Below are positions 1,102 through 34,812 of a DNA stretch of 64,000 nucleotides, in pieces. Made by a program: the position numbers and the translations under genes. Source of the stretch: an uncultured Alphaproteobacteria bacterium (GTDB lineage: Bacteria > Pseudomonadota > Alphaproteobacteria > HIMB59 > GCA-002718135); contig CACHSZ010000003.1 of assembly GCA_902582755.1 (NCBI GenBank), forward strand, positions 1 to 64,000, read 5' to 3'. Within the stretch, counting starts at the first letter, position 1. Every line of letters begins with the position of its first letter. Below the pieces are notes generated by a model. It made no database searches. It was given only the letters and a program-made list of their open reading frames with translations, and was not told the origin of the DNA.

Positions 1102-1200
1102 ATTAACTCCCGGTTTAACCTCCACAGAAACAAAAACACCGGTTTTTTCTGTGTGCTAGATTTTATTTGGAGGGACTATTACTTATAAAGAGTTATTTTT
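1102..1200 (-). promoter_or_regulatory. Structured 5' leader of rpsB (possible S2 autoregulatory leader)
   Basis: The RNA read on the minus strand between dnaE and rpsB can fold. A perfect 8-bp stem CACAGAAA/TTTCTGTG is formed by positions 1123-1130 and 1146-1153 with a 15-base loop. Directly outside it, CCTCC (from 1169-1173) can pair with GGAGG (from 1119-1123), which includes an upstream Shine-Dalgarno-like sequence. S2 leaders that mediate feedback by the S2 protein are known in alphaproteobacteria; whether this is one of those named families is inference. Compensatory changes in related genomes would decide it. Confidence 0.45.
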
Positions 1201-4200
1201 TCAAGATATTTCTAAAGAATAGTCCAAAATTTTTGATTTATTTAAATCGTCAAGTTTCTTGTACGATTTAATAGAATATTTGTTGAAATCGAAATTTACC
1301 ATCTTTTCATCCACTGTAACAAAAAGATCAATATCATAATTATGATTGCTATTTTCCTTTTCTGCAAGAATGCTATCTTTTAATTTTAAGATGTTTTTTA
1401 TATTTGTATAAATATTAAATTTATATTTTTTCTGTAAATAAGTTTTTTCTAGTGATACTATCTCTCTAATTATAAAACGTGTATCAGTATTATTTTTTAC
1501 TACATCTACATTAAATATTAATAAATTACCTTCTTTCAATAATGGGCGATATCTATATAAATTTTCACTAAATATAGTTAATTCAAATTGAAAATTAGTT
1601 TCTGAAACTGTTATAAAAGCATATTTTTTTCCATCCTTATTAGATCTTTCTTTAATATCTAAAATAGCTCCACAGACTTTAATAGAATTTGTAGAATTGT
1701 TCTCTGAGTAGTTTTTAAAAAGACTAATATTCTCTAATTCAAAGAATTTTTTTGGATATAGATTTAATGGATGATCAGAAAAATAAAACCCAATAACCTC
1801 TAATTCATTAGATAAAATTTCTGCATTTTTCCATTTTTCATAATTTTGATTGAAAAGGTTTTTATCTTCGAAAGAAATCTCATTTTCTTCAAAAAGCATG
1901 TCTTGATTGATATGTTTTTCTCCTCCAAATAGCTCGACAAATTTTGGTACATTATTAAATAATTTCGATCTGTTAGCTTCAATACTATCAAATGCTCCAG
2001 CCTGAATAAGTTTTTCGAGCTGTCTTTTATTTATTACTTCCTTAGAAACTCTATTCATAAAATCAATGATACTTTTAAATTTACCATTTTTATTTCTTTC
2101 ATTAACCATGCTAGAAATTGATTTTATACCAACACCTTTAATTGCTGCTAATCCAAATCTTATTGATTTTAAGTTTTCATTTATTTCAATTGAAAATAAA
2201 GGATCAGAAAAATTTATATCCGGCTTTAAAAAATTGATATTTAATCTTTCTATTTCTTGTTTAAGTAAAATAATTTTTTCTGTTCTATCTATAGAATAGT
2301 TTAAAGTTGCTGTAAGAAATTCATGAGGAAAGTTTGCTTTTAAATAAGCAGTTTGATAAGATATTAAAGCATATGCTGCTGCATGACTTTTATTAAAACC
2401 ATACCCAGCAAATTTATCAACTAAATCAAATATTTTTGCAGCTTCTTTTTTATCAATATTATTTTGAACAGCACCCTCTATAAATCTTGATTTTTGCATA
2501 TCCATTTCTTTTTGAATTTTTTTTCCCATTGCTCTTCTCAGTAAGTCTGCTTCGCCTAAAGAATAATTTGATAAAACTTGTGCAATCTGCATTACTTGTT
2601 CTTGATAAACAATAATTCCATAAGTTTCTTTTAAGACATCTTCTAACATAGAATGAAGATATTTGATTTCTTCACGTCCATGTTTTCTATTACAAAAAGA
2701 TGGAATATTATCCATTGGCCCAGGTCTAAACAAAGCAACTACAGCAATTATTTCTTCAAATCTATCAGGTTGCAATTGGCGAAGGACGCTTCCCATACCA
2801 TTACTTTCTAATTGGAATATTCCTACCGTATCACCTTTACTTAACTGATCATAGGTTTTTGAATCATTAAGAGGTATTTTATTTATTAAAAAATTTTTAT
2901 TTTCTTTAACTATTAATTTTATACAATCATCTATAATAGATAATGTAGTTAAACCAAGAAAATCAAATTTAATTAAACCTGCCTCTTCAACATACTTCAT
3001 TGAAAATTGTGTAGCATTTGTATTAGTATTTTGATCTTTGTATAAAGGAACTACTTTAGATAACTTTTCATGACCAATAACAACTCCAGCAGCATGGGTT
3101 GAAGCATGTCTATGAGTTCCTTCAATTTTTAGACTTACATCAATTATATTTGAAATTCTTTCATCGCTACTTATCCTTTCTTGCAAACTTCTTTCAGTTT
3201 TTATAGACTCACTTAAAGTAAGTGGATTTGATGGATTAAAAGGTATTAGTTTAGCAAAAGAATCTACTTCTCCATATGGAACTTCTAAAACCCTACCAAT
3301 ATCTCTTACCGCAGCTCTTGATGCTAAAGTACCAAATGTAATTATATGAGCAACACATTCACTTCCATATTTATTATTTACATATTCAATAACTTCATCC
3401 CTTCTAGTTTGACAAAAATCTATGTCAAAGTCTGGCATTGACACTCTTTCTGGATTTAAGAATCTTTCAAATAATAATTCATACTCTAATGGATCTATAT
3501 CAGTTATACCTAGACACCAAGCTACTAAACTGCCGGCACCAGATCCTCTTCCAGGACCAACAGGAATAAATTGCTCTTTAGCCCAGTTAACAAAATCTGC
3601 TACTATTAAGAAGTATCCTGCAAAACCCATTCTAATTATTATTTCATTTTCATATTTCAACCTATCGCTATAAATTTGTATGTTCTTAATATTCTTTTCT
3701 TTAATTTTTTTTTCAAGTCCCAGTTCTGAGGAATTTAATAAAAAATCTTCTGCTGATAAATTTAAATCATTTTTAAATTCAGGTAATTGTGGTCTTGTTG
3801 ACTCAGGAAAATAATTACAAGAAAGAGAAATATTTAAATTATTTTGTATTATCTCAGGAATATCTTCAAAATTTGAATACATTTCTTCATTTGACTTAAA
3901 ATAAATATTTTCATTTGAAGTATTTCTTTGAGAATTATTAATTGTAGATTTTTGAGCAATACATAGTAATGCATCATGTGCTGGATAATCATCTTTATTA
4001 GCGTACTTAATGTTGTTTGAGCCAATAAGGGGTATATCAAATTCTTTTGATAAATTAATAAATTCTTTTTCAAAAACATCTATATTTTGATCATTTATTC
4101 TTTGAATTTCAAAAAGAAAATTTTGTTTAAAAACTTTTTTAAAATTACTTATTAATTGAATTATATCTTTTTTTCTGTTTTCTTTATTTAATAAAAGTAA

Positions 4201-4605
4201 AGGATTAAACTCACCACCTATATAACAAAATAAACCTTCAGAAAATTTCTCTAATTGTGAAAAGTATACACCAACATTATTTTCTTCATTAAGATGAGAG
4301 AGTGAGCTTAATTCTAATAGATTTCTATACCCAATTTCATTTTTGACTAAAAATGTAACTTGGGAAATTTGATTATTTACAATAATATCTAATAAATTTA
4401 TTGAAGTTCCAATTATAGGTTGAATATTATTTTTTACACATTCTTTGGAAAATTCAAATACTCCAAACATATTATTATTATCTGTAATTGCTATTGCAGG
4501 CATGTCATTTCTTTTAGCTAGATCTACTAAATTTGTAATTTTTAGAGTACTTTCAGATAAAGAATATGAAGATAAAGATCGTAAATGAATAAAAGGATTA
4601 TTCAT
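1201..4605 (-). CDS. dnaE: DNA polymerase III alpha subunit
   Basis: Replicative polymerase catalytic subunit, 1134 residues, normal for DnaE1. It opens with a PHP domain (residues 1 to about 210, FIHLRSLSSYSLSE). GPGRGSGAGSLVAW lies near residue 350 and the catalytic aspartates near 395-400 in PDFDIDFCQTRRDEVI. FRPGPMDNIPS and YQEQVMQIA follow in the fingers region. Helix-hairpin-helix and OB-fold regions make up the C-terminal third. The PHP metal ligands look partly degenerate (SSYSLSES rather than the fuller HSxYSLLDG form), as in many DnaE proteins without nuclease activity. It overlaps lolD by 8 bases. No clear terminator separates it from rpsB. Confidence 0.97.
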   Translation of the reverse strand: MNNPFIHLRSLSSYSLSESTLKITNLVDLAKRNDMPAIAITDNNNMFGVFEFSKECVKNNIQPIIGTSINLLDIIVNNQISQVTFLVKNEIGYRNLLELSSLSHLNEENNVGVYFSQLEKFSEGLFCYIGGEFNPLLLLNKENRKKDIIQLISNFKKVFKQNFLFEIQRINDQNIDVFEKEFINLSKEFDIPLIGSNNIKYANKDDYPAHDALLCIAQKSTINNSQRNTSNENIYFKSNEEMYSNFEDIPEIIQNNLNISLSCNYFPESTRPQLPEFKNDLNLSAEDFLLNSSELGLEKKIKEKNIKNIQIYSDRLKYENEIIIRMGFAGYFLIVADFVNWAKEQFIPVGPGRGSGAGSLVAWCLGITDIDPLEYELLFERFLNPERVSMPDFDIDFCQTRRDEVIEYVNNKYGSECVAHIITFGTLASRAAVRDIGRVLEVPYGEVDSFAKLIPFNPSNPLTLSESIKTERSLQERISSDERISNIIDVSLKIEGTHRHASTHAAGVVIGHEKLSKVVPLYKDQNTNTNATQFSMKYVEEAGLIKFDFLGLTTLSIIDDCIKLIVKENKNFLINKIPLNDSKTYDQLSKGDTVGIFQLESNGMGSVLRQLQPDRFEEIIAVVALFRPGPMDNIPSFCNRKHGREEIKYLHSMLEDVLKETYGIIVYQEQVMQIAQVLSNYSLGEADLLRRAMGKKIQKEMDMQKSRFIEGAVQNNIDKKEAAKIFDLVDKFAGYGFNKSHAAAYALISYQTAYLKANFPHEFLTATLNYSIDRTEKIILLKQEIERLNINFLKPDINFSDPLFSIEINENLKSIRFGLAAIKGVGIKSISSMVNERNKNGKFKSIIDFMNRVSKEVINKRQLEKLIQAGAFDSIEANRSKLFNNVPKFVELFGGEKHINQDMLFEENEISFEDKNLFNQNYEKWKNAEILSNELEVIGFYFSDHPLNLYPKKFFELENISLFKNYSENNSTNSIKVCGAILDIKERSNKDGKKYAFITVSETNFQFELTIFSENLYRYRPLLKEGNLLIFNVDVVKNNTDTRFIIREIVSLEKTYLQKKYKFNIYTNIKNILKLKDSILAEKENSNHNYDIDLFVTVDEKMVNFDFNKYSIKSYKKLDDLNKSKILDYSLEIS

Positions 4606-5287
4606 TCTTTAAATGTATTTTCTTATTTTTAAAATAATAAATTTCATCAGCTAATAAAGAATAAGTTTTGTTATGAGTAACATATACTAAAGTTTTTTTA
4701 TTTTGTTCGATATAATTTATAAAAAATTTAAAAATATTGTTAGCAGTATCTTCATCAAGATTCCCTGTCATCTCATCAGCTAAAATTAAATCTGGATTAT
4801 TTACTAAAGATCTTGCAATAGCAACTCTTTGCTGCTCTCCTCCTGATAATTTTAAAGGTTTATAATTTATCCTTTCATCTAAACCAAATTCAAGAAGTAG
4901 TTTTTTAGAAATTTCATAACTTTTCTTTTCATTTTTATTTATTAATAATGGTAGCATAACATTCTCGATCACAGTGAGTTCAGGAATCAGATGAAAAAAT
5001 TGATGAATAAAACCAATGGATAATCCTCTAATTTTATTCGTTTCATCTTTAGAACACAAAGAAATATCTTTGTTCTTAAAATAAAAGTCTCCATCATATT
5101 CTGAGTCAAGTAAACCAATAATATTGAGAAAAGTTGTTTTGCCTGAACCTGAAGGCCCAACAATTGAAACTTTAGTGTTTTGCTTTAATTTAAAATTTAA
5201 ATTTTTAACTATCTCAATTTTTGAATTATTTTCATTTGTATAATTTTTACAAAGATTGGTTATCTCTAATAAATATTTGTTATTCAC
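4598..5287 (-). CDS. lolD: Lipoprotein-releasing ABC transporter ATP-binding protein LolD
   Basis: ATPase of the LolCDE-type complex that extracts lipoproteins from the inner membrane for transfer to the outer membrane. The 229 residues hold Walker A GPSGSGKTTF (near 43-52), the ABC signature LSGGEQQRVAIARSL (near 143-157), Walker B LILADEMTGNLD (near 162-173) and an H-loop histidine (VTHN). The immediate, 8-base-overlapping partner upstream is a LolC-type permease, which supports LolD over the related FtsE or MacB ATPases. Confidence 0.9.
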   Translation of the reverse strand: MNNKYLLEITNLCKNYTNENNSKIEIVKNLNFKLKQNTKVSIVGPSGSGKTTFLNIIGLLDSEYDGDFYFKNKDISLCSKDETNKIRGLSIGFIHQFFHLIPELTVIENVMLPLLINKNEKKSYEISKKLLLEFGLDERINYKPLKLSGGEQQRVAIARSLVNNPDLILADEMTGNLDEDTANNIFKFFINYIEQNKKTLVYVTHNKTYSLLADEIYYFKNKKIHLKNE

Positions 5288-6530
5288 TTCTTAAACTCTT
5301 AATAGGATCTATTCTGGCTGAACTTAAAGCTGGAAAAATAGTTGAGATAATTGATATGATTATAGCCACACAAAGTACGTAAACAACCTCATTTATACTA
5401 ATCTTTGAAGGTAAAGATGATAAATAATAGACTTCTTCAGAAAAGAGCTTTGTCCCAAGTAAATATTCTAAAAAACTTTGAATTGATTTAATATTTATTG
5501 TGAAAAGTATTCCAATTATTAATCCTATCAATGAGCCAATCAAGCCAATTGAGATTCCAATAGTAAAAAATATTTTTATAATACTTTTATTACTCATTCC
5601 AATAGTTTTTAATATGCCAATATCTTTATTTTTTTCTTTTACAAAAATAATTAAACCTGAAATAATATTTAATGATGCAACTAAGATGATTAAAGAAAGG
5701 ATAATAAACATAACATTCTTTTCTACTTTAAGTGCGTTTATTAAAGTTTTGTTTTGATCCTTCCAAGATATTGAATAAAAATTTAATAAAAGATTAGATG
5801 TTTCTAATTCTACTTTATTTTTAAATAATTCAATTTCATTAGGAGATGATGTAAAGAATTCAATTTTGTTATATATACCTTCATCATATAAGAGTAATTT
5901 TCTAACAAGTTCTGAAGATAAAAAAATTAAATTTGAATCATATTCATATAAACCTAGATCAAATACACCTACTACCTCCAATGTTTTAAACCTTGGAATA
6001 TTTCCTAATATTGTTTTATCAGTCTTTGGAATTGCAATTTTAACCTTATCTCCAACACTTAAATTCATTTCGTTCGCTAAGGAGTCTCCAATTAATATTT
6101 CACTTTTTGGATTTTGAATTAATGCGCCCATATTAATTGAATTAAACAAAAAATGATTTTTATCATATGCATCATAGCCTTTGATCATCACACCTTTTGA
6201 GTTATTTGATCTTATAATTAATCCGTTTGTTTCAATAGATTTGTAGTGTTGGTAAAAAAAAGAATTATCAATATTCAATATAAGTTCATCAGCTTGCTTA
6301 TTTGTTATCTCATTATCAAAACTATAAATATTAAGGTGCGAATTAAGTCCAATTATTCTGTTAGTTAGATCAATTCTAAAACCATTCATAACAGACATTA
6401 CTATAATAATTGCTGCAACTCCTAAACTAATACCAATTATTGAAAACCAAGCGAAAATAGACACATAGCCATCGGATTTCTTAGACAATAAAAACCTAAA
6501 AATCAGTAGTCGTTCTGATTTAGAAATCAT
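5280..6530 (-). CDS. lolC: Lipoprotein-releasing ABC transporter permease (LolC/LolE type)
   Basis: Inner-membrane permease of 416 residues. One membrane segment lies near residues 20-50 (FAWFSIIGISLGVAAIIIVMSVMNGF), a large periplasmic domain follows, and three segments make up the C-terminal FtsX-like domain (about 270-405). The N-terminal motif RFLLSKKSDGYVSIFAWFS is typical of LolC/LolE. Only one such permease is present, so the complex is presumably a homodimer with LolD, as in other alphaproteobacteria. The start directly follows the proS stop. Confidence 0.9.
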   Translation of the reverse strand: MISKSERLLIFRFLLSKKSDGYVSIFAWFSIIGISLGVAAIIIVMSVMNGFRIDLTNRIIGLNSHLNIYSFDNEITNKQADELILNIDNSFFYQHYKSIETNGLIIRSNNSKGVMIKGYDAYDKNHFLFNSINMGALIQNPKSEILIGDSLANEMNLSVGDKVKIAIPKTDKTILGNIPRFKTLEVVGVFDLGLYEYDSNLIFLSSELVRKLLLYDEGIYNKIEFFTSSPNEIELFKNKVELETSNLLLNFYSISWKDQNKTLINALKVEKNVMFIILSLIILVASLNIISGLIIFVKEKNKDIGILKTIGMSNKSIIKIFFTIGISIGLIGSLIGLIIGILFTINIKSIQSFLEYLLGTKLFSEEVYYLSSLPSKISINEVVYVLCVAIIISIISTIFPALSSARIDPIKSLRSE

Positions 6531-7826
6531 CTATTTTTTTAACTTATTATTAATAAAATCAATTACACTACTGGATGAAATTTTTTCACTTTCATTATTT
6601 TGGCGATTTTTTATTTCTACTAAATTATCTTTTAAATCTCTTTTGCCAATAATAATTTGATATGGTGTCCCAATTAATTCATTATCAGATAATTTTTTTC
6701 CTATACTGCAGATTCTATCATCTAAAATGACTTCAATATTATTTTTCATAAAGTATTCATAATATTCTGATGATTTTGTGGCACAATCTTGATCATCTGG
6801 CATTAAATTAATTATGGAAACCTTAAATGGAGCAACCTCTAAAGGCCACCTAATTCCTTTTTCATCATGATAAGCTTCTATAATTGCACCCACAAGTCTT
6901 GAAACACCAATGCCATATGATCCCATATGCACTGGAACATTATTCCCACTTTTATCTTGAACAAATGCGTTTAATTTCTCAGAATATTTTGTTCCAAAAT
7001 AAAATATATGACCCACTTCAATGCCCTTAGAAATTTTTAGATCTTCATTTGAAATTGGGCAATTTTTTTCATCATGTTGATCATCAACTGCAGCATAAAA
7101 TGACTGCAACTCATTTGGGTCTATAGTTTCAGGGTTTAGTGTTTCTAATTTTTTATCATAATAAAGTGTACTTTCACCAGTCTTAGCTAGTATTTGAAAT
7201 TCATGACTTAAGTTACCGCCAATTGGTCCTGTTTCTGCTCTTAAAGAAATTGGTGTTAAACCCATTCTAATAAAAGTTTTTATGTATGCTTTAAACATAT
7301 TGTCATAAGATTTTTTTGCTTCGTTTTCATCAAGATCAAATGAATAATTATCCTTCATTAAGAATTCTCTTCCTCGCATTACTCCAAACCTAGGCCTAAC
7401 TTCATCTCGGAATTTCCATTGAATATGATAAAGATTTTTTGGAAGATCTTTGTAAGAATTTATATGTGATTGAAATATATCTGTAATTAATTCTTCATTT
7501 GTTGGACCGTAAAGCATTTCCCTTCCACTTCTATCTGTAATCCTTAACATTTCTTTTCCATAATCATCGTATCTTCCTGATTTAATCCATAAATCAGAAG
7601 ATTGAATTGTAGGCATAAGCAGTTCTACTGCTCCTGCATTATTTTGTTCCTCTCTAACAATCTGTTCAATTTTTTTTAATACAAGTAGACCTAGAGGTAG
7701 CCACGAATAAATACCGGCACTAGATTGTTTAATCATGCCAGCTCTGATCATTAATTTATGTGAAATTATTTCAGCATCTGATGGTGCATCTTTAATAGTG
7801 GGAAGGAAAAAGTTAGAATATTTCAT
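6531..7826 (-). CDS. proS: Prolyl-tRNA synthetase (short form)
   Basis: Charges tRNA-Pro. At 431 residues this is the short alphaproteobacterial type, which lacks the inserted editing domain of the roughly 570-residue enterobacterial form. Class II motif 2 is visible as FRDEVRPRFGVMRGREFLMKD (about residues 138-158) and motif 3 as GSYGIGVSRLVGA (about 304-316). The C-terminal anticodon-binding domain carries IGKRDLKDN. The start overlaps the stop of the DUF1467 gene by four bases (ATGA type). Confidence 0.95.
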   Translation of the reverse strand: MKYSNFFLPTIKDAPSDAEIISHKLMIRAGMIKQSSAGIYSWLPLGLLVLKKIEQIVREEQNNAGAVELLMPTIQSSDLWIKSGRYDDYGKEMLRITDRSGREMLYGPTNEELITDIFQSHINSYKDLPKNLYHIQWKFRDEVRPRFGVMRGREFLMKDNYSFDLDENEAKKSYDNMFKAYIKTFIRMGLTPISLRAETGPIGGNLSHEFQILAKTGESTLYYDKKLETLNPETIDPNELQSFYAAVDDQHDEKNCPISNEDLKISKGIEVGHIFYFGTKYSEKLNAFVQDKSGNNVPVHMGSYGIGVSRLVGAIIEAYHDEKGIRWPLEVAPFKVSIINLMPDDQDCATKSSEYYEYFMKNNIEVILDDRICSIGKKLSDNELIGTPYQIIIGKRDLKDNLVEIKNRQNNESEKISSSSVIDFINNKLKK

Positions 7827-8056
7827 TTATTAAATATATTTGATAAATCAAATCCAAATAAAATCAAAAAAAATAAAATTAAAGCTGATATTAATGAAGT
7901 TGCTATAAATTTTATTAGAAGATATGGCTTACTTGGAGCACTTTTTGCATGTCCAGATTCTACTTTTTGGGGTACTTTTATCTTAATTGGTAGGAGTATG
8001 AAAAATAAAATCCACCAAACAAGGATAAAAATTAGAACATGAGTAAATAGTGCCAT
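7823..8056 (-). CDS. DUF1467 family small membrane protein
   Basis: A 77-residue protein with two hydrophobic segments (about residues 5-25, LFTHVLIFILVWWILFFILL, and 47-70). Between them is a short loop containing PQKVESGHAKSAPSKPYLL. This pattern and its place between rnj and proS match the DUF1467 family of alphaproteobacteria, whose function is unknown. The start shares one base with the rnj stop and the end overlaps proS, so it is tightly coupled to both. Confidence 0.85.
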   Translation of the reverse strand: MALFTHVLIFILVWWILFFILLPIKIKVPQKVESGHAKSAPSKPYLLIKFIATSLISALILFFLILFGFDLSNIFNK

Positions 8057-9729
8057 TAAGATCGTATTAAATGAACTTCAATTTCTGGTTTTTTTTGAAT
8101 TGAATTTTTTATAATCTTTCTAAAACTACTTTTAACTAAGTCAGATACTATAAGATCTGATGATTTTTGATCTTTATTAAGTTTTGTATAGTTTTCTATA
8201 AAAAGTATTTTAAAATCATTTTTAATATTTTCTTCATCTATTCCCGGCAATCCTTTTAAAGTAAGTAACATATTTTTATTAATTGAATAGTCATCATCAT
8301 TGATAATTAAAGAAATTAAAACTAGCCCCTCAAATGAATATTTCCTTCTCTCTTTAATAAAAGCAGATTCAGAGTCGTAAAGATTTTTACCCTCAACAAT
8401 TAACTTTCCAGTTTCAAATTTTTCTACAATTTTAGGTTCACCTGGTGCAATTTTGAGACATTTTCCATTTTCTAAAATTTTAGTAAATGGTACTTGAGAT
8501 GAGTAAGATAATTGTTTATGTGCCTCTAGATGCATAGGTTCACCATGCACAGGAATAGATAAGTAAGGTTTTGTCCAATTATACATTTGTTTTATTTCAT
8601 CTGCATAACCATGACCTGAAACATGTACTAAATCATCATCAGCAGTTACTATCTCAACTCTTTGTCTAATAAGTAAGTTCTTTAAATTATTTATTGATTT
8701 TTCATTACCAGGAATATCTCTAGAGCTAAAAATGACTACATCTTCAGGCTCTAAATGTAAATTTTGATGAGAATTATAAGCTATTCTAAAAAGGGCAGAT
8801 CTTTTTTCACCCTGACTACCAGTACAAATTATGACTAAATTTTCTCTTGGTATATAAGAAGCTTCATCTTCACTGATAAAAATTTCATCATCTGCAACAT
8901 AACCACATTTTCTTGCTACCTCGATATTTTTTTTCATACTTCTGCCAACAAGAGCGACCTTTCTTTTATTTTTTTTTGCTGCGTGAATAATATTTTTCAT
9001 TCTTGCAATATTTGAAGAAAAACATGTAACAACAATTCTATTAGAAAATCTTGAAAATACACTTGTTAGTTCATCCCTAACGTCATTTTCAGATTCTGAT
9101 TTACCAGGCACATTTGCGTTAGTAGAGTCACCTATTAAGGCAAGTAATCCATCATTTCCTAATTTTTCAAATTTTTCTTTTGAAAATGAGTCTCCTAAAG
9201 TAGGTGAATGATCTATTTTCCAATCAGCAGTATGAAGTAATGATCCATATGTTGTTTTAATTACAATTGCAGTTGGTTCAGGAATTGAGTGTGTAGTTGG
9301 AATAAAACTTATATCAAAATTATTGAGTATTAATTTCTTTTCTAGATTTATCTCTTCTAAAGTAAATCCTTCTACTTTATTGAATTCTTTTAGCCTATTT
9401 TCAATAAGAAATTTTGCAAATTTACTTGCATATACTGGACATTTAATTTTATTTGCTAAGAACGCAACAGCTCCTGCATGATCTTCATGACCATGGCTGA
9501 TTATAATTGCCTCGAGATTATCTTCTAAACTTTCAATATGATCAATTTTTGGTACTAATAAATCTACACCAGGAAACTTTTCATCTGCAAATGAAAGACC
9601 TAAATCTATCATTATCCATTTTCCATCACATCCGTAAAGATAACAATTTGCACCTATTTCTCCAATACCTCCAAGAGATAAAAAGTGTAGTCCTTCATTA
9701 AAATCATTTAGTTGTAAATTATTACTCAT
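8056..9729 (-). CDS. rnj: Ribonuclease J
   Basis: Metallo-beta-lactamase/beta-CASP nuclease of 557 residues with 5'-exonuclease and endonuclease roles in RNA maturation and decay. The metal-binding motif HGHEDH is at residues 79-84. GDSTNAN (about 212) follows, then the beta-CASP histidine in HVSGHGYADEI (about 385) and PVHGEPMHLEAH (about 410). The presence of RNase J rather than only RNase E is typical of alphaproteobacteria. It overlaps coaX by 8 bases. Confidence 0.94.
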   Translation of the reverse strand: MSNNLQLNDFNEGLHFLSLGGIGEIGANCYLYGCDGKWIMIDLGLSFADEKFPGVDLLVPKIDHIESLEDNLEAIIISHGHEDHAGAVAFLANKIKCPVYASKFAKFLIENRLKEFNKVEGFTLEEINLEKKLILNNFDISFIPTTHSIPEPTAIVIKTTYGSLLHTADWKIDHSPTLGDSFSKEKFEKLGNDGLLALIGDSTNANVPGKSESENDVRDELTSVFSRFSNRIVVTCFSSNIARMKNIIHAAKKNKRKVALVGRSMKKNIEVARKCGYVADDEIFISEDEASYIPRENLVIICTGSQGEKRSALFRIAYNSHQNLHLEPEDVVIFSSRDIPGNEKSINNLKNLLIRQRVEIVTADDDLVHVSGHGYADEIKQMYNWTKPYLSIPVHGEPMHLEAHKQLSYSSQVPFTKILENGKCLKIAPGEPKIVEKFETGKLIVEGKNLYDSESAFIKERRKYSFEGLVLISLIINDDDYSINKNMLLTLKGLPGIDEENIKNDFKILFIENYTKLNKDQKSSDLIVSDLVKSSFRKIIKNSIQKKPEIEVHLIRS

Positions 9730-10483
9730 AAAAATGTTTGTTACCGATTTCTTTTATTCCTTCTAATGTCAAATGTTCCATATATATAGGTTTATAAATA
9801 ATTTTATCCCTAAATATTTTACCTAGACCACCCGTAATATAGACTTTGGGCTTAAAGTTATTCTCCTTAATAATTTGCTTTAATATGCCATTAACTGCAT
9901 GCAAATAACCAAAATAGAAACCTGATTGAATAGAAGCTGATGTATTATTATTAACAATTTTATTAGATTTTGAGATTTTTGAAGTTTTTATTAACTCAGC
10001 ATTTTTTAAAAGTGTCTCCATTGAAAGATTTATACCTGGAAAAATTAATCCACCTAAATATTGATTATTTTTAATGACATCGAAAGTAGTAGCTGTACCA
10101 AAGTCGAGAATTATACAGTCTTTGATTTTTTTACTATATACATAGGCATAGTTTGCTATTCGATCACTCCCAATTTGATTTAAATTATAATTGATACTAT
10201 TTCTAAATGATATTTTTTTGGGATTAATTACATAAAATTTGAATTTATTTTTTTGAAAAATATTTTTTAAAATTAAATTTAAAGAAGGTACAACAGAGGA
10301 CAAGATACAAAATCTATCTTTAAGATTATTAATCAATTTTTTGTTAGATTTAAAAAATTTATTTATTTCTTTTTTTGTAATATTGATTTTTTTTTCTGTT
10401 TTTAATCTAATAATTTTAATTAATTTATTTTTTGTATAAAAACCTATAACTATATTCGTATTACCTACATCTATAACAATCAT
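9722..10483 (-). CDS. coaX: Type III pantothenate kinase
   Basis: Phosphorylates pantothenate in the first step of coenzyme A synthesis. The 253 residues begin MIVIDVGNTNIVIGFY, with the phosphate-binding DVGNTN at 5-10. They continue with GSDRIANYAY (about 104), the catalytic region LDFGTATTFDVI (about 123) and YITGGLG near 215. The gene sits between birA and rnj, an arrangement seen in many alphaproteobacteria, and shares a single base with the birA stop. Confidence 0.95.
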   Translation of the reverse strand: MIVIDVGNTNIVIGFYTKNKLIKIIRLKTEKKINITKKEINKFFKSNKKLINNLKDRFCILSSVVPSLNLILKNIFQKNKFKFYVINPKKISFRNSINYNLNQIGSDRIANYAYVYSKKIKDCIILDFGTATTFDVIKNNQYLGGLIFPGINLSMETLLKNAELIKTSKISKSNKIVNNNTSASIQSGFYFGYLHAVNGILKQIIKENNFKPKVYITGGLGKIFRDKIIYKPIYMEHLTLEGIKEIGNKHFYE

Positions 10484-11217
10484 TAAATTATTCTAGCATT
10501 ATATATATTTTCAAAATTAATATTATTTTTTAAAGTGATTGAGCCATCTGGGTTAAGATTATGAAATATTCCTTGTTTTACATTTTGTTCATCAATTTTT
10601 AAATTAATGTTGCTTCCTAAATATAATAATCTACTTTTATATTCAGTCATAATTTTTTCGTGGTTATTTAGCAGTTGTGTAAAATTTTTAAAATACTCTT
10701 CCAAAATTTCATATACAAAATAAAAATTGTTAATTTCTTTATTATATTTATTAATATTAGTTGTTGGATAATTTTCAATTTCTGGAGAAGATACTATATT
10801 AACCCCAAAACCAGTATTGATATATTTATCACTTTTAATACTAAATATTTCAGAAATTATTCCAGAAATTTTTTCTTTATTAATTAAAATATCATTTGGC
10901 CATTTAATTTGAGTTTTAACATTACAAATATTTTCAATCACAGAACAGATCATATTAGTAATAAAAGCATTATTTAAAAAATGATTTTCTATTGGCAATA
11001 TATTTTTAGATAAAATAGAAATATAGACATTATTTTTTGGACTTTCCCAAGTTGTTCCTCGTCTTCCAAATCCTTTTTTTTGTTCATTTGCCATCAAACA
11101 TATATCTCTATTATCAATAAGTTTTTTAACCTCTGACATTGTAGAGTCTACAGATTCAATAAAATGAAAATCAAAATTGTTTTTATCTAATAGATTTTTA
11201 ATTTTATCTAATGACAT
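10483..11217 (-). CDS. birA: Biotin--[acetyl-CoA-carboxylase] ligase (no DNA-binding domain)
   Basis: Attaches biotin to carrier proteins. The 244 residues include the biotin/AMP-binding motif in GFGRRGTTWESP (about 49-60) and the lysine motif IKWPNDILIN (about 103-112), with SGIISE and GFGVNI further on. It is the monofunctional short form: there is no N-terminal helix-turn-helix, so it should not act as a repressor. It lies 3 bases downstream of nuoN, so it is probably read through from the nuo operon. Confidence 0.92.
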   Translation of the reverse strand: MSLDKIKNLLDKNNFDFHFIESVDSTMSEVKKLIDNRDICLMANEQKKGFGRRGTTWESPKNNVYISILSKNILPIENHFLNNAFITNMICSVIENICNVKTQIKWPNDILINKEKISGIISEIFSIKSDKYINTGFGVNIVSSPEIENYPTTNINKYNKEINNFYFVYEILEEYFKNFTQLLNNHEKIMTEYKSRLLYLGSNINLKIDEQNVKQGIFHNLNPDGSITLKNNINFENIYNARII

Positions 11218-31639: not shown

Positions 31640-32797
31640 ATGGAAGTTTCAAAAAGAATATTTAATTTAGAAACAGAAACAGCATTCTCTATTCTTGCTA
31701 AAGCTAATAATCTTGCTGCTAAAGGTAAAAATATTATTAATTTAGGAATAGGACAACCCGATTTTCCTACACCAATAAATATTCAGGAAGCTGCCATTAA
31801 AGCAATTAAAGATGGTCATCATGGCTATACTCCATCAAATGGGATCCCCGAATTACGAGAATCAATTTCAGAGCTAGTATTTAAAAAATATAAATCAAAT
31901 ATTAATCCAGAAAATGTTTTAATAACTCCAGGTGGTAAGCCAGTAATTTTTATTTCAGCATTATTATTAGGAAGTGAAGACAGAGAAATTATTTTTCCCG
32001 ATCCAGGTTTTCCAATTTATAGATCTATGATTAAATATAGCGGTGCAAAAGCTGTACCATTAAAGCTTTCAGAAAAAGATAATTTCGAAATTAATACTGA
32101 ACAATTAAAAGAATTAATTTCTGAGAAAACAAGTTTGATAATAATAAATAATCCAAACAATCCAACAGGATCATATATGAATAAGAAAAAAATTACTGAT
32201 CTTGTTAATTTACTAGAGCAGTACCCAAACGTATCCATTTTAAGTGATGAAATTTATAGTAATATTATTTTTAATAATGAACAAATGCCATCATTATTAG
32301 AATACGAAAGCATAAAAGATAGATTAATAGTTCTTGAAGGATGGAGCAAAACATATTGTATGACTGGATGGAGATTAGGCTGGAGTATATGGCCAGAAAA
32401 TTTAATTGAACATGCTAATAAAATATGTGTCAATTACAATTCCTGCCCTACCTCAATTTCGCAATATGCAGGGTTAGAAGCAATAAAAGGTTCTCAGAAA
32501 GAAATAACAAAAATTGTTAGTGAATTTCAAAAAAGAAAAGAGTACGTATTTAATGAATTGAATAAATTAGAAAAAATTTCTTGTTTTGAACCAGGTGGTG
32601 CTTTTTATGCATTTCCAAATATTTCAAAAACTGGATTGAGCGGAAAAAAATTTTCAGAAATCGCACTTGAAGAAAAAGGTGTTGCATTAGTTCCTGGCTC
32701 TAGCTTTGGAGATAATGCTGGAGAATTTGTAAGAATAAGTTTTGCTAATTCTCTAGAAAATATTAAAGAAGCAATTAATAGGTTATCTACGATATGA
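31640..32797 (+). CDS. PLP-dependent aminotransferase, class I/II (aspartate/alanine type)
   Basis: Fold-type I aminotransferase of 385 residues. GIGQPDFPTP is near residue 36, GYTPSNGIPELR near 66 and the motif NNPNNPTG (about 172-179) follows. The PLP lysine lies in EGWSKTYCMTGWRLG (about residue 238), and the C-terminal arginine motif is FVRISFA. Members use aspartate, alanine, glutamate or related amino acids; the exact substrate cannot be read from sequence. Its stop overlaps the PII gene start (ATGA), linking it to nitrogen metabolism. Confidence 0.88.
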   Translation: MEVSKRIFNLETETAFSILAKANNLAAKGKNIINLGIGQPDFPTPINIQEAAIKAIKDGHHGYTPSNGIPELRESISELVFKKYKSNINPENVLITPGGKPVIFISALLLGSEDREIIFPDPGFPIYRSMIKYSGAKAVPLKLSEKDNFEINTEQLKELISEKTSLIIINNPNNPTGSYMNKKKITDLVNLLEQYPNVSILSDEIYSNIIFNNEQMPSLLEYESIKDRLIVLEGWSKTYCMTGWRLGWSIWPENLIEHANKICVNYNSCPTSISQYAGLEAIKGSQKEITKIVSEFQKRKEYVFNELNKLEKISCFEPGGAFYAFPNISKTGLSGKKFSEIALEEKGVALVPGSSFGDNAGEFVRISFANSLENIKEAINRLSTI

Positions 32798-33135
32798 AAA
32801 AAATAGAAGCAATCATTAAACCATTTAAACTTTCTCAAGTTAAAGAAGCTTTACATGAACTTGGAATATCCGGAATGACATTAGTGGATGTAAAAGGTTT
32901 CGGTAGACAAAGAGGATCAACTGGTGGAATTGATCCTAATGATGGGTATGATGATGAATTTTTAGCAAAAATGAAACTTGAAGTGATCGTCGAAGACAAT
33001 CAAGTAAATGATGTTATTGAATCAATAAAAACTAGCGCTTATTCAGGAAAAATCGGCGATGGTAAGATTTTTGTATCAAATATTGAGCAGGTAATTAGAA
33101 TAAGGACTGGTGAAAAAGACAGTGATGCTGTCTAA
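32794..33135 (+). CDS. glnK: Nitrogen regulatory protein PII with divergent T-loop
   Basis: Trimeric 2-oxoglutarate/ATP sensor of 113 residues. The start (MKKIEAIIKPFKL), the B-loop SGKIGDGKIF (84-93) and the C-terminal IRIRTGE are canonical. The T-loop (about residues 37-56) is not: the usual RGAEY uridylylation sequence is replaced by a Gly/Asp-rich segment reading GGIDPNDGYDDEF, one residue longer, with a tyrosine at 52 near the normal modification position. It is translationally coupled to the upstream aminotransferase and stands before the riboswitches and glnA. Whether it is GlnB or GlnK in function is undecided. Confidence 0.92.
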   Translation: MKKIEAIIKPFKLSQVKEALHELGISGMTLVDVKGFGRQRGSTGGIDPNDGYDDEFLAKMKLEVIVEDNQVNDVIESIKTSAYSGKIGDGKIFVSNIEQVIRIRTGEKDSDAV

Positions 33136-33176
33136 TTTTTCTTTACTTTTATATAAAACCTAGTAATTAAACTACA

Positions 33177-33230
33177 ATCGTTCAACTCTTTTAGAGTCGG
33201 AAGTAGGCATTGTGCCGAAGGAACGCATGC
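33177..33230 (+). promoter_or_regulatory. Glutamine riboswitch (glnA RNA motif), copy 1
   Basis: Matches the glnA-type glutamine aptamer. P1 is CGTTC (33179-33183) with GAACG (33221-33225). P2 is ACTCT (33185-33189) with AGAGT (33193-33197). The conserved core TCGGAAGTA follows, then P3 GGCA (33206-33209) with TGCC (33213-33216), and GAAGGAACGC closes P1. This family is known mainly from cyanobacteria and marine metagenomes, where it controls nitrogen genes in response to L-glutamine. It lies 42 bases after the PII stop and is followed by a second copy. Confidence 0.88.
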
Positions 33231-33240
33231 AAAAGTTATA

Positions 33241-33296
33241 AATCGTTCAACCTATTATTAGTAGGTCGGAAGTAAGCTAAAGCTGAAGGAACGCGC
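33241..33296 (+). promoter_or_regulatory. Glutamine riboswitch (glnA RNA motif), copy 2
   Basis: Second aptamer with the same architecture but different stem sequences. P1 is CGTTC (33244-33248) with GAACG (33289-33293). P2 is CCTA (33251-33254) with TAGG (33262-33265). The identical core TCGGAAGTA is followed by P3 AGCT (33275-33278) with AGCT (33281-33284) and then GAAGGAACGC. Because the stems differ from copy 1 while pairing and core are kept, the two copies show compensatory changes. This is direct evidence that the fold is under selection. Confidence 0.88.
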
Positions 33297-33334
33297 ATCA
33301 AAAGCAGATTTCATAACTAGAGCATGATTTAACC

Positions 33335-33361
33335 GGGTAACGCTGGATAGCATACCCTTTT
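33335..33361 (+). terminator. Terminator-like hairpin between the riboswitches and glnA
   Basis: GGGTA (33335-33339) pairs with TACCC (33353-33357). Inside it GCT (33342-33344) pairs with AGC (33349-33351), and TTTTG follows directly. It sits 20 bases before the glnA ribosome site (AAGGAG, 33369-33374). It could be the expression platform of the tandem aptamers. The T-tract is short, so it may be a weak or conditional terminator. Confidence 0.45.
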
Positions 33362-33381
33362 GTTGAAGTAAGGAGATAGAT

Positions 33382-34812
33382 ATGAAATTAAAAAGCTCGA
33401 CTCCAAAAGATTTAATGTCTGAAATTAAAGATATGGACATTAAAATGGTTGATATGCGCTTTACTGACATACCAGGTACAACTCAACATTTTACAATACC
33501 AATTAAATTTTTAGACGAAGATATATTTTCTGATGGACTTGGTTTTGATGGATCTTCAGTTAGAGGTTTCCAAGAAATTCAAGACAGTGATATGATTGTT
33601 TTGCCAGATGCAACGACTGCATACATTGATCCATTTTTTTCAGAAAAAACTCTAGCATTACATTGTAATATTAAGGATCCTGTAACTTTGGTTGATTATA
33701 GTCGTGATCCAAGAAATATTGCCAAAAAAGCTGAGGCATATTTGAAATCATCTGGTATTGGCGATACAGCATTTTTCGGACCAGAAGCAGAATTTTTTGT
33801 ATTTAACAATGTTCAGTTTGATTCTGGATCAAACTTTGCGTTTCATGAAGTTGATTCTGTCGAAGGTACTTGGAATAGTGGCGCTGATGAAAACCCAAAC
33901 TTAGGACATAAACCTAGACATAAAGAAGGTTATTTTCCTTTACCACCAGTTGATACACTTCAAGATGTAAGAACTGAAATGGTAATGACTATGCAAGACA
34001 TTGGTCTTACTGTTGAAGCACATCACCATGAAGTTGCAACAGGTGGACAGTGTGAAATTGATTTAGAATTTTCACCACTGTTAAAAATGGCCGATGATAT
34101 GATGAAATATAAGTACGTTGTAAAAAATGTTGCCAGACAACATGGAATGACTGCTACATTTATGCCTAAACCTTTATTTGAAGATAATGGTTCAGGAATG
34201 CACGTGCATCAAAGTGTTTGGAAAGACGGTGACACATTAATGTATAAAGAAGGTAACTATGCTAACCTGAGTGATTTAGCTCTAAACTATATTGGAGGTA
34301 TTCTTAAACACGCACCTGCTCTATTAGCTTTTTGTGCTCCAACTACTAATTCTTATAAAAGATTGGTACCAGGCTTTGAGGCTCCGGTAAACATTGTTTA
34401 CTCTCAAAGAAATAGAACTGCATCTGTGAGAATTCCTGCTTATTCTCAAAGCCCTAAAGCAAAAAGAATGGAATTTAGATGTCCAGATCCAAGTGCAAAT
34501 CCATACTTAGCATTCTCAGCAATGTTAATGGCAGGATTAGATGGAATTAAAAATAAAATTAATCCTGGTGATCCAACAGATATAAATCTCTATGCTGCTA
34601 GCGATGAAGTTTTGTCTAAAATTCAATCTACGCCTGGATCTTTAGCTGAATCTCTTGAAGCTCTTGAAAAAGATCATGCATTTTTATTAGAGGGTGATGT
34701 ATTCACCAAAGATGTAATTGAAACTTATATTAGCTATAAAAAAGAGAGTGAGGTTGACCCTATTAATATTAGACCTCACCCTCACGAGTTTAAACTATAC
34801 TACGACGTGTAG
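33382..34812 (+). CDS. glnA: Glutamine synthetase, type I
   Basis: ATP-dependent ligation of ammonia to glutamate, 476 residues, dodecameric GSI family. Motifs are [10 protein letters not shown] (54-63), [58 protein letters not shown] and [10 protein letters not shown]. The adenylylation-site region keeps the tyrosine (Tyr404, NLYAASDEV) but lacks the DLPPEE that normally follows it. AAGGAG lies seven bases before the ATG. It is preceded by two glutamine aptamers and followed by a strong terminator, so it is probably a single-gene unit. Confidence 0.97.

Follow-up and report, generated by a model that had tools for sequence, protein, structure and literature searches.

Tandem glutamine riboswitches and a conserved linker-complementary strand before glnA in a marine alphaproteobacterial family

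Tandem riboswitches, the glycine riboswitch among others, place two aptamers of the same class in series before one expression platform. The glutamine sensor of Escherichia coli and most proteobacteria is the PII-modifying protein GlnD. The type 1 glutamine riboswitch (Rfam family RF01739) was published in 2010 from marine metagenomes (PMC2864571), already with its tandem arrangement and its link to glnA and amt genes, so the element described here is not new in kind. That paper gives the motif distribution as 'Cyanobacteria, marine' and cites tandem riboswitches for the tandem glnA RNAs. Glutamine riboswitches are described in PMC6316151 as restricted to cyanobacteria, with links to glutamine synthetase, PII and amt genes limited to environmental sequences; glutamine activates cyanobacterial genes of the gifB type, and a related motif, glutamine-II (Downstream-peptide, RF01704), has the same ligand. 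Glutamine riboswitches are also reported in marine phages (PMC9004378).

Here we analyse a 64,000-nucleotide stretch of DNA, termed the window in what follows. An initial annotation, made from the sequence, had proposed two tandem segments with a shared pairing plan as glnA-type glutamine aptamers in front of glnA in an alphaproteobacterium. The analysis supports this identification, for a marine organism with a small genome. The covariance search that the annotation had suggested for the glnA region, run over the window with Rfam cmscan, gave two plus-strand RF01739 matches, both over the full model (positions 1–53 of 53) and above the gathering score of 35 bits: aptamer 1 at 33177–33229 (64.3 bits, E = 6.1e-12) and aptamer 2 at 33242–33297 (67.7 bits, E = 7.2e-13). 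All the quoted stems are present. P1 is CGTTC/GAACG in both copies (33179–33183 with 33221–33225, and 33244–33248 with 33289–33293), P2 is ACTCT/AGAGT in aptamer 1 and ACCTA/TAGGT in aptamer 2, and P3 is GGCA/TGCC and AGCT/AGCT, respectively; the P2 quoted for the second copy, CCTA/TAGG, is correct for the inner four pairs and one pair short of the full stem. The two-segment core pattern occurs twice in the 64 kb and in none of 100 dinucleotide-preserving shuffles. Aptamer 2 scores 16.5 bits with RF01704, against a gathering score of 33, and is not a glutamine-II member. No Rfam family other than RF01739 exceeds its threshold within 33130–33420, and a third riboswitch in the block or the hairpin described below was rejected on this ground.

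The gene glnA (33382–34812, plus strand), encoding a type I glutamine synthetase (TIGR00653, 665 bits), starts 85 nt beyond aptamer 2 on the same strand, so that the aptamers form part of the 5′ leader of a gene for nitrogen assimilation; judged from the sequence, the tandem riboswitch almost certainly acts on glnA. Upstream lies glnB (32794–33135, plus strand), encoding a P-II protein (PF00543) with an altered T-loop apex, and the 246-base gap between glnB and glnA contains both aptamers. A terminator scan of 32700–33450 found two candidates, the second on the minus strand, against a mean of 0.1 in shuffles. Since a terminator-like hairpin, a pattern match only, lies over the glnB end (33117–33133, plus strand, with the tail AATTTTTCTT), glnB and glnA are probably separate transcripts, and the hairpin suggests that the riboswitch leader has its own promoter.

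Beyond what the initial annotation described, we found a conserved linker between the aptamers, a conserved block downstream of them and three further aptamer pairs in the genome. The linker (CATGCAAAAGTTATAAAT, 33226–33243, plus strand) abuts P1 of aptamer 1 with zero spacer. Its segments CATGC (33226–33230) and AGTTAT (33234–33239) are complementary to GCATG (33322–33326) and ATAACT (33313–33318) in the block (AGATTTCATAACTAGAGCATGA, 33306–33327, plus strand), which lies 3′ of aptamer 2. A segment of the block, GATTTCATA (33307–33315), is also complementary to the start codon region of glnA (33381–33389). Between the block and the glnA Shine-Dalgarno sequence (AAGGAG, 33370–33375, plus strand, read from the sequence) stands a hairpin, GGGTA...TACCC (33335–33357, plus strand), whose sequence varies among leaders.

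Compared with type 1 riboswitches as published, the locus shares the full-model match and the association with nitrogen-assimilation genes, and differs in being assigned to the genomes of a marine alphaproteobacterial family, in its four pairs and in its putative linker/block platform. In cyanobacterial leaders about six bases directly after P1 exactly complement a site before the start codon (30 of 39). The window resembles the gifB-type leader of cyanobacteria, a single aptamer acting as an ON switch, in that a strand abutting the 3′ side of P1 complements a downstream element; the gifB-type partner is the Shine-Dalgarno sequence itself, whereas the window has the block in this role, itself complementary to the start site. 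No complement to the tail of aptamer 2 (CGCATC) is seen ahead of the glnA start, and the gifB-type platform is thus absent there. Two aptamers in series, an arrangement that may sharpen the response as the initial annotation proposed, recall the tandem glycine riboswitch; unlike in that system, the linker of the present tandem is itself a long conserved pairing strand.

Tandem leaders were gathered from all fetched loci by a loose core pattern, giving 138 distinct leaders in which the identity of core and P1, but not that of linker and block, is partly imposed by the search. Of these, 122 have a block with the end GCATG(A/G/T) beyond aptamer 2 (68 before glnA, 28 before an ATP-grasp gene, 24 before amtB and 2 without assignment). 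In every one of the 122 the linker joins P1 of aptamer 1 without a gap and begins C(A/G)TGC, and its length is 17 or 18 nt in 120. The C(A/G)TGC linker is found in none of the 16 tandem leaders without a block, 13 of which are titled SAR86 or other gammaproteobacteria and the rest by phylum only or as betaproteobacteria.

All 122 block-bearing leaders allow the linker:block duplex in a single register, CATGC with GCATG and AGTTAT with ATAACT (glnA) or ATAGCT (most others). Shuffling the block 1000 times in each of ten leader types gave 0 to 10 versions that paired as well as the real one, and 0 to 53 of about 1150 to 7900 segments from other parts of the locus did so too. In folding, amtB leaders form the helix unprompted. 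Pairing is kept with different letters in leaders labelled SAR116 (L054, L145), TMED109 (L074) and SP299 (L165). Changes are mostly one-sided (U–A to U–G, A–U to G–U, C[A]TGC to C[G]TGC), with one pair missing in some leaders (L128). Two-sided changes are rare and both strands nearly invariant, so that covariation contributes less to the case for the helix than complementarity and co-occurrence do; on these the helix is very likely real. A MAFFT alignment (A1), in which rows L205 and L208 start inside aptamer 1, put the linker out of register between glnA and other leaders; formal pair counting on it was dropped for this reason and the register was read from the duplexes instead. In the TMED109 and SP299 (Pelagibacterales) leaders, which share the linker start and the block, the linker is longer by about 45 bases that contain a hairpin.

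The second partner of the block depends on the downstream gene. In glnA leaders its 5′ half (TTTCATA) complements the start region (TATGAAA), and 28 of 31 distinct pairs cover positions −1 to +5. For amtB it is the Shine-Dalgarno region that has a complement, TTTCCATA, with positions −9 to −7 covered in all 15 pairs. Block:start pairing averaged −8.6 for the leaders' own pairs in glnA against −7.1 and −5.6 for swapped ones, −8.6 against −7.3 and −6.0 in amtB, and −5.9 against −6.1 and −7.9 in ATP-grasp leaders, whose blocks pair more strongly with amtB sites than with their own start sites. Against shuffled start sites, 13 of 31 glnA pairs, 1 of 15 amtB pairs and none of 17 ATP-grasp pairs fell below 5%. 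The block was therefore rejected as an anti-start strand in ATP-grasp leaders, where pairing is no better than chance. On these sequence comparisons block:start pairing is plausible for glnA, weaker for amtB and unsupported for ATP-grasp, and we lean slightly towards a block that covers the start site in glnA leaders.

We propose that the tandem riboswitch would control glnA with the block as its switching strand. While the block is paired with the linker, the helix would enclose aptamer 2 and abut P1 of aptamer 1, and the glnA start would be open; once released, the block would pair with the start codon region and glnA translation would stop. Glutamine bound to aptamer 1 would exclude a helix that abuts P1, as the glutamine-ON leaders of the gifB type in cyanobacteria suggest. 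Since the abutting strand in the window is the linker, high glutamine would release the block and close glnA. By this analogy an OFF response of glnA to high glutamine is likely, and it fits physiology, with both glutamine synthetase and ammonium uptake shut down at high glutamine. The model as a whole, in which linker and start site compete for the block and glutamine closes glnA translation, seems reasonably likely. Such a platform predicts definitely, and testably, why the aptamers come paired.

Folding energies bear on the sign of the response. With both aptamers formed, the window's linker:block state is computed at −45.2 kcal/mol and its block:start state at −43.9 kcal/mol, so that the open form is better by 1.3 kcal/mol when both P1 stems are present. 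Start-site openness was computed for 116 leaders (6 of the 122 were skipped): the start is more open with linker:block in 63 of 64 glnA leaders (mean unpaired probability 0.63 against 0.39), 10 of 18 amtB1, 5 of 6 amtB2 and 21 of 28 ATP-grasp leaders. Read alone, the window energies would make glutamine an activator. Under this opposite sign glutamine would stabilise both P1 stems and leave the linker free to hold the block, so that the start opens, as for gifB. In the ligand-free fold the P1 strands may swap (GAACG of copy 1 with CGTTC of copy 2), with the linker in a loop and the start covered; this state is the more stable one in 63 of 64 glnA leaders and in the window (−46.1 against −45.2 kcal/mol), and the known glutamine riboswitches activate (PMC6316151). 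We nevertheless consider an ON switch unlikely here. It would raise glutamine synthetase and ammonium uptake at already high glutamine, the known activation concerns genes like gifB, which encode inhibitors of glutamine synthetase, and the energy differences, which leave out ligand binding, are within model error. The modelled leader states are close in energy, as a switch requires, and nearest-neighbour energies do not give the state that glutamine favours.

Control might instead act on transcription, with the hairpin at 33335–33357 as a terminator whose formation is decided by the tandem aptamers. Some relatives (L127, L021, L090) do have a T run after a hairpin at the same place. The hairpin of the window is followed by TTTT only and is absent from the terminator scan output, the amtB and ATP-grasp leaders of the same genome have no T run directly after the hairpin, and no antiterminator partner was seen for its 5′ arm, which together make attenuation rather improbable. 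A further reading, in which a protein or small RNA binds the block and linker complementarity is secondary, is very doubtful. The block is indeed more conserved than its pairing would demand, GCATG[A/G] being the same in leaders of three gene families, but every block-bearing leader has a complementary linker and no blockless tandem leader has one.

The proposed device, in which linker and start site would compete for the block, would precede other genes as well. The assembly that contains the window (1.43 Mb, 84.6% complete) has eight RF01739 matches, all over the cut-off, and they form four tandem pairs with no single copy: one before glnA, two before two neighbouring amtB genes and one before an ATP-grasp operon. 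Both amtB proteins match PF00909 and are over the cut-off of TIGR03644, the 'marine subtype'. The operon encodes, in order, a circularly permuted ATP-grasp protein (PF14403), an alpha-E protein (PF04168) and a transglutaminase-like protein (PF01841). Glutamine aptamers precede the circularly permuted ATP-grasp gene in several lineages (the window's family, a second family termed f10, a contig labelled Rhizobiales TMED25 and SAR86; loci L009 at 7482–10921, L041, L043, L044, L104, L108, L116 and L155), which suggests a nitrogen-related role for this uncharacterised operon. A short ORF stands between riboswitch and ATP-grasp gene in L002 and in other ATP-grasp leaders; in L002 it ends in TGATG over the ATP-grasp start codon, so that translational coupling of the two is possible.

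RF01739 was found in 106 of the 162 genomes of the order. All 106 belong to the window's family (106 of 110), leaving none among the 52 genomes of the sister family. An even draw of 385 genomes from the class had it in six, two from the window's family and four from f10. The search of relatives for paired copies, also suggested in the initial annotation, bore out the pairing: all 60 glnB–glnA regions from the window's family contain exactly two matches. These regions were fetched by glnB position, independently of the riboswitch. By table count 81 of the 110 family genomes have a P-II match, and the regions come from 60 of the 80 besides the window's own genome.

A pattern scan of named genomes gave at least 118 loci with the core pattern; among the matches listed were cyanobacteria, many uncultured alphaproteobacterial single-cell genomes, SAR86, other gammaproteobacteria and a few others. 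This provides named genomes for the glnA- and amt-linked glutamine riboswitches formerly known from environmental DNA. A mobile or phage origin of the leader was rejected, since the linker pattern turned up in no viral contig and blastn found no leader-like phage record. Two loci labelled SAR116 (L054, L145) carry amtB genes 73–74% identical, with a leader of the type of the window's family, and reflect either gene transfer or mislabelled contigs.

One sister-family genome (G110) is presumably HIMB59 itself. AEGEAN-169 comprises two subclades, one of which includes HIMB59 (PMC10308909); the earlier guess of a SAR11/AEGEAN-169 affiliation fits this placement but is unproven. The words riboswitch, glnA and PII are absent from the main text of that paper. 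Our literature search, largely confined to papers outside subscription, found no glutamine riboswitches placed in the window's lineage and no report of the family's riboswitch set, of its missing GlnD or of the linker/block platform.

The two families also differ in the proteins of nitrogen sensing. GlnD (TIGR01693) was found in 42 of the 162 order genomes, all in the sister family (42 of 52, 40 of them over the curated cut-off), and the profile matched none of the 110 genomes of the window's family. GlnE (PF03710) was likewise confined to the sister family, with matches in 41 order genomes (40 over the cut-off) and none among the 110. For GlnD, a contrast of 0 of 110 against 42 of 52 cannot stem from genome incompleteness. 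The initial annotation had taken the NtrBC cascade as the usual expectation for the lineage. In that wording this was not supported: in a search for NtrC alone (TIGR01818) none of the 162 order genomes reached the cut-off, and the window's family has weaker full-length matches to an NtrC-like regulator. The contrast that stands is that the sister family has GlnD and GlnE and the window's family has neither.

P-II itself is found in 131 of the 162 genomes, with one copy per genome in the window's family and one or two in the sister family. The T-loop apex reads TGGIDPNDGY in the window's glnB and TELYRGAEY in the sister family; the TELYRGAE apex is present in 20 of 20 sister-family PII proteins read, one of them carrying M in place of L, and in 0 of 61 from the window's family, where the T-loop is mostly one residue longer. 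Loss of the uridylylation site Tyr51 was considered and rejected, as the alignment shows Tyr at this position in 58 of the 61 proteins and Phe in the other 3; the changed part is the apex (44–50) only.

Strict mutual exclusion of riboswitch and GlnD is not a general rule. In f10, by table counts, RF01739 is found in 23 of 32 genomes, GlnD also in 23, and both in 18, so the swap is lineage-specific. Most f10 riboswitches stand alone (one match in 21 genomes, two in one genome and four in another), and the three f10 leaders read (L041, L043 and L044) precede an ATP-grasp gene. What is peculiar to the window's family is the paired aptamers, the control of glnA and amtB and the accompanying loss of GlnD and GlnE. 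One genome of this family (G109, 93% complete) has no match for RF01739, GlnD, GlnE or PII, and GlnD loss may therefore be earlier than, or separate from, the riboswitch set.

In the window's family RNA would take the place of GlnD in sensing glutamine, a replacement that we regard as fairly probable. The sister families, one with GlnD and GlnE and the other with riboswitches, offer a natural setting in which to compare how protein and RNA sense the same metabolite. Our more tentative proposal, for which we would not claim quite even chances, is the full combination: that this family of abundant marine bacteria dropped GlnD and GlnE and relies instead on genome-wide tandem RNA sensors (at glnA, both amtB genes and the ATP-grasp operon), acting through a new, tandem-specific platform in which the start site has the linker, rather than the aptamer tail, as its rival for a shared conserved strand, and an ON aptamer so becomes an OFF switch.

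Other arrangements of the aptamer were seen outside the family. Three glutamine aptamers stand in a row in L080 and L098, on contigs labelled Pseudomonadota AH-736-J14 and SAR86 AG-894-D08. In nine SAR86 leaders (L136, L137, L151, L057, L072, L143, L154, L160 and L164) the tail CATCT complements AGATG before the start of an ORF; by analogy with gifB, several of these ORFs, which are small, might be glutamine-ON genes.
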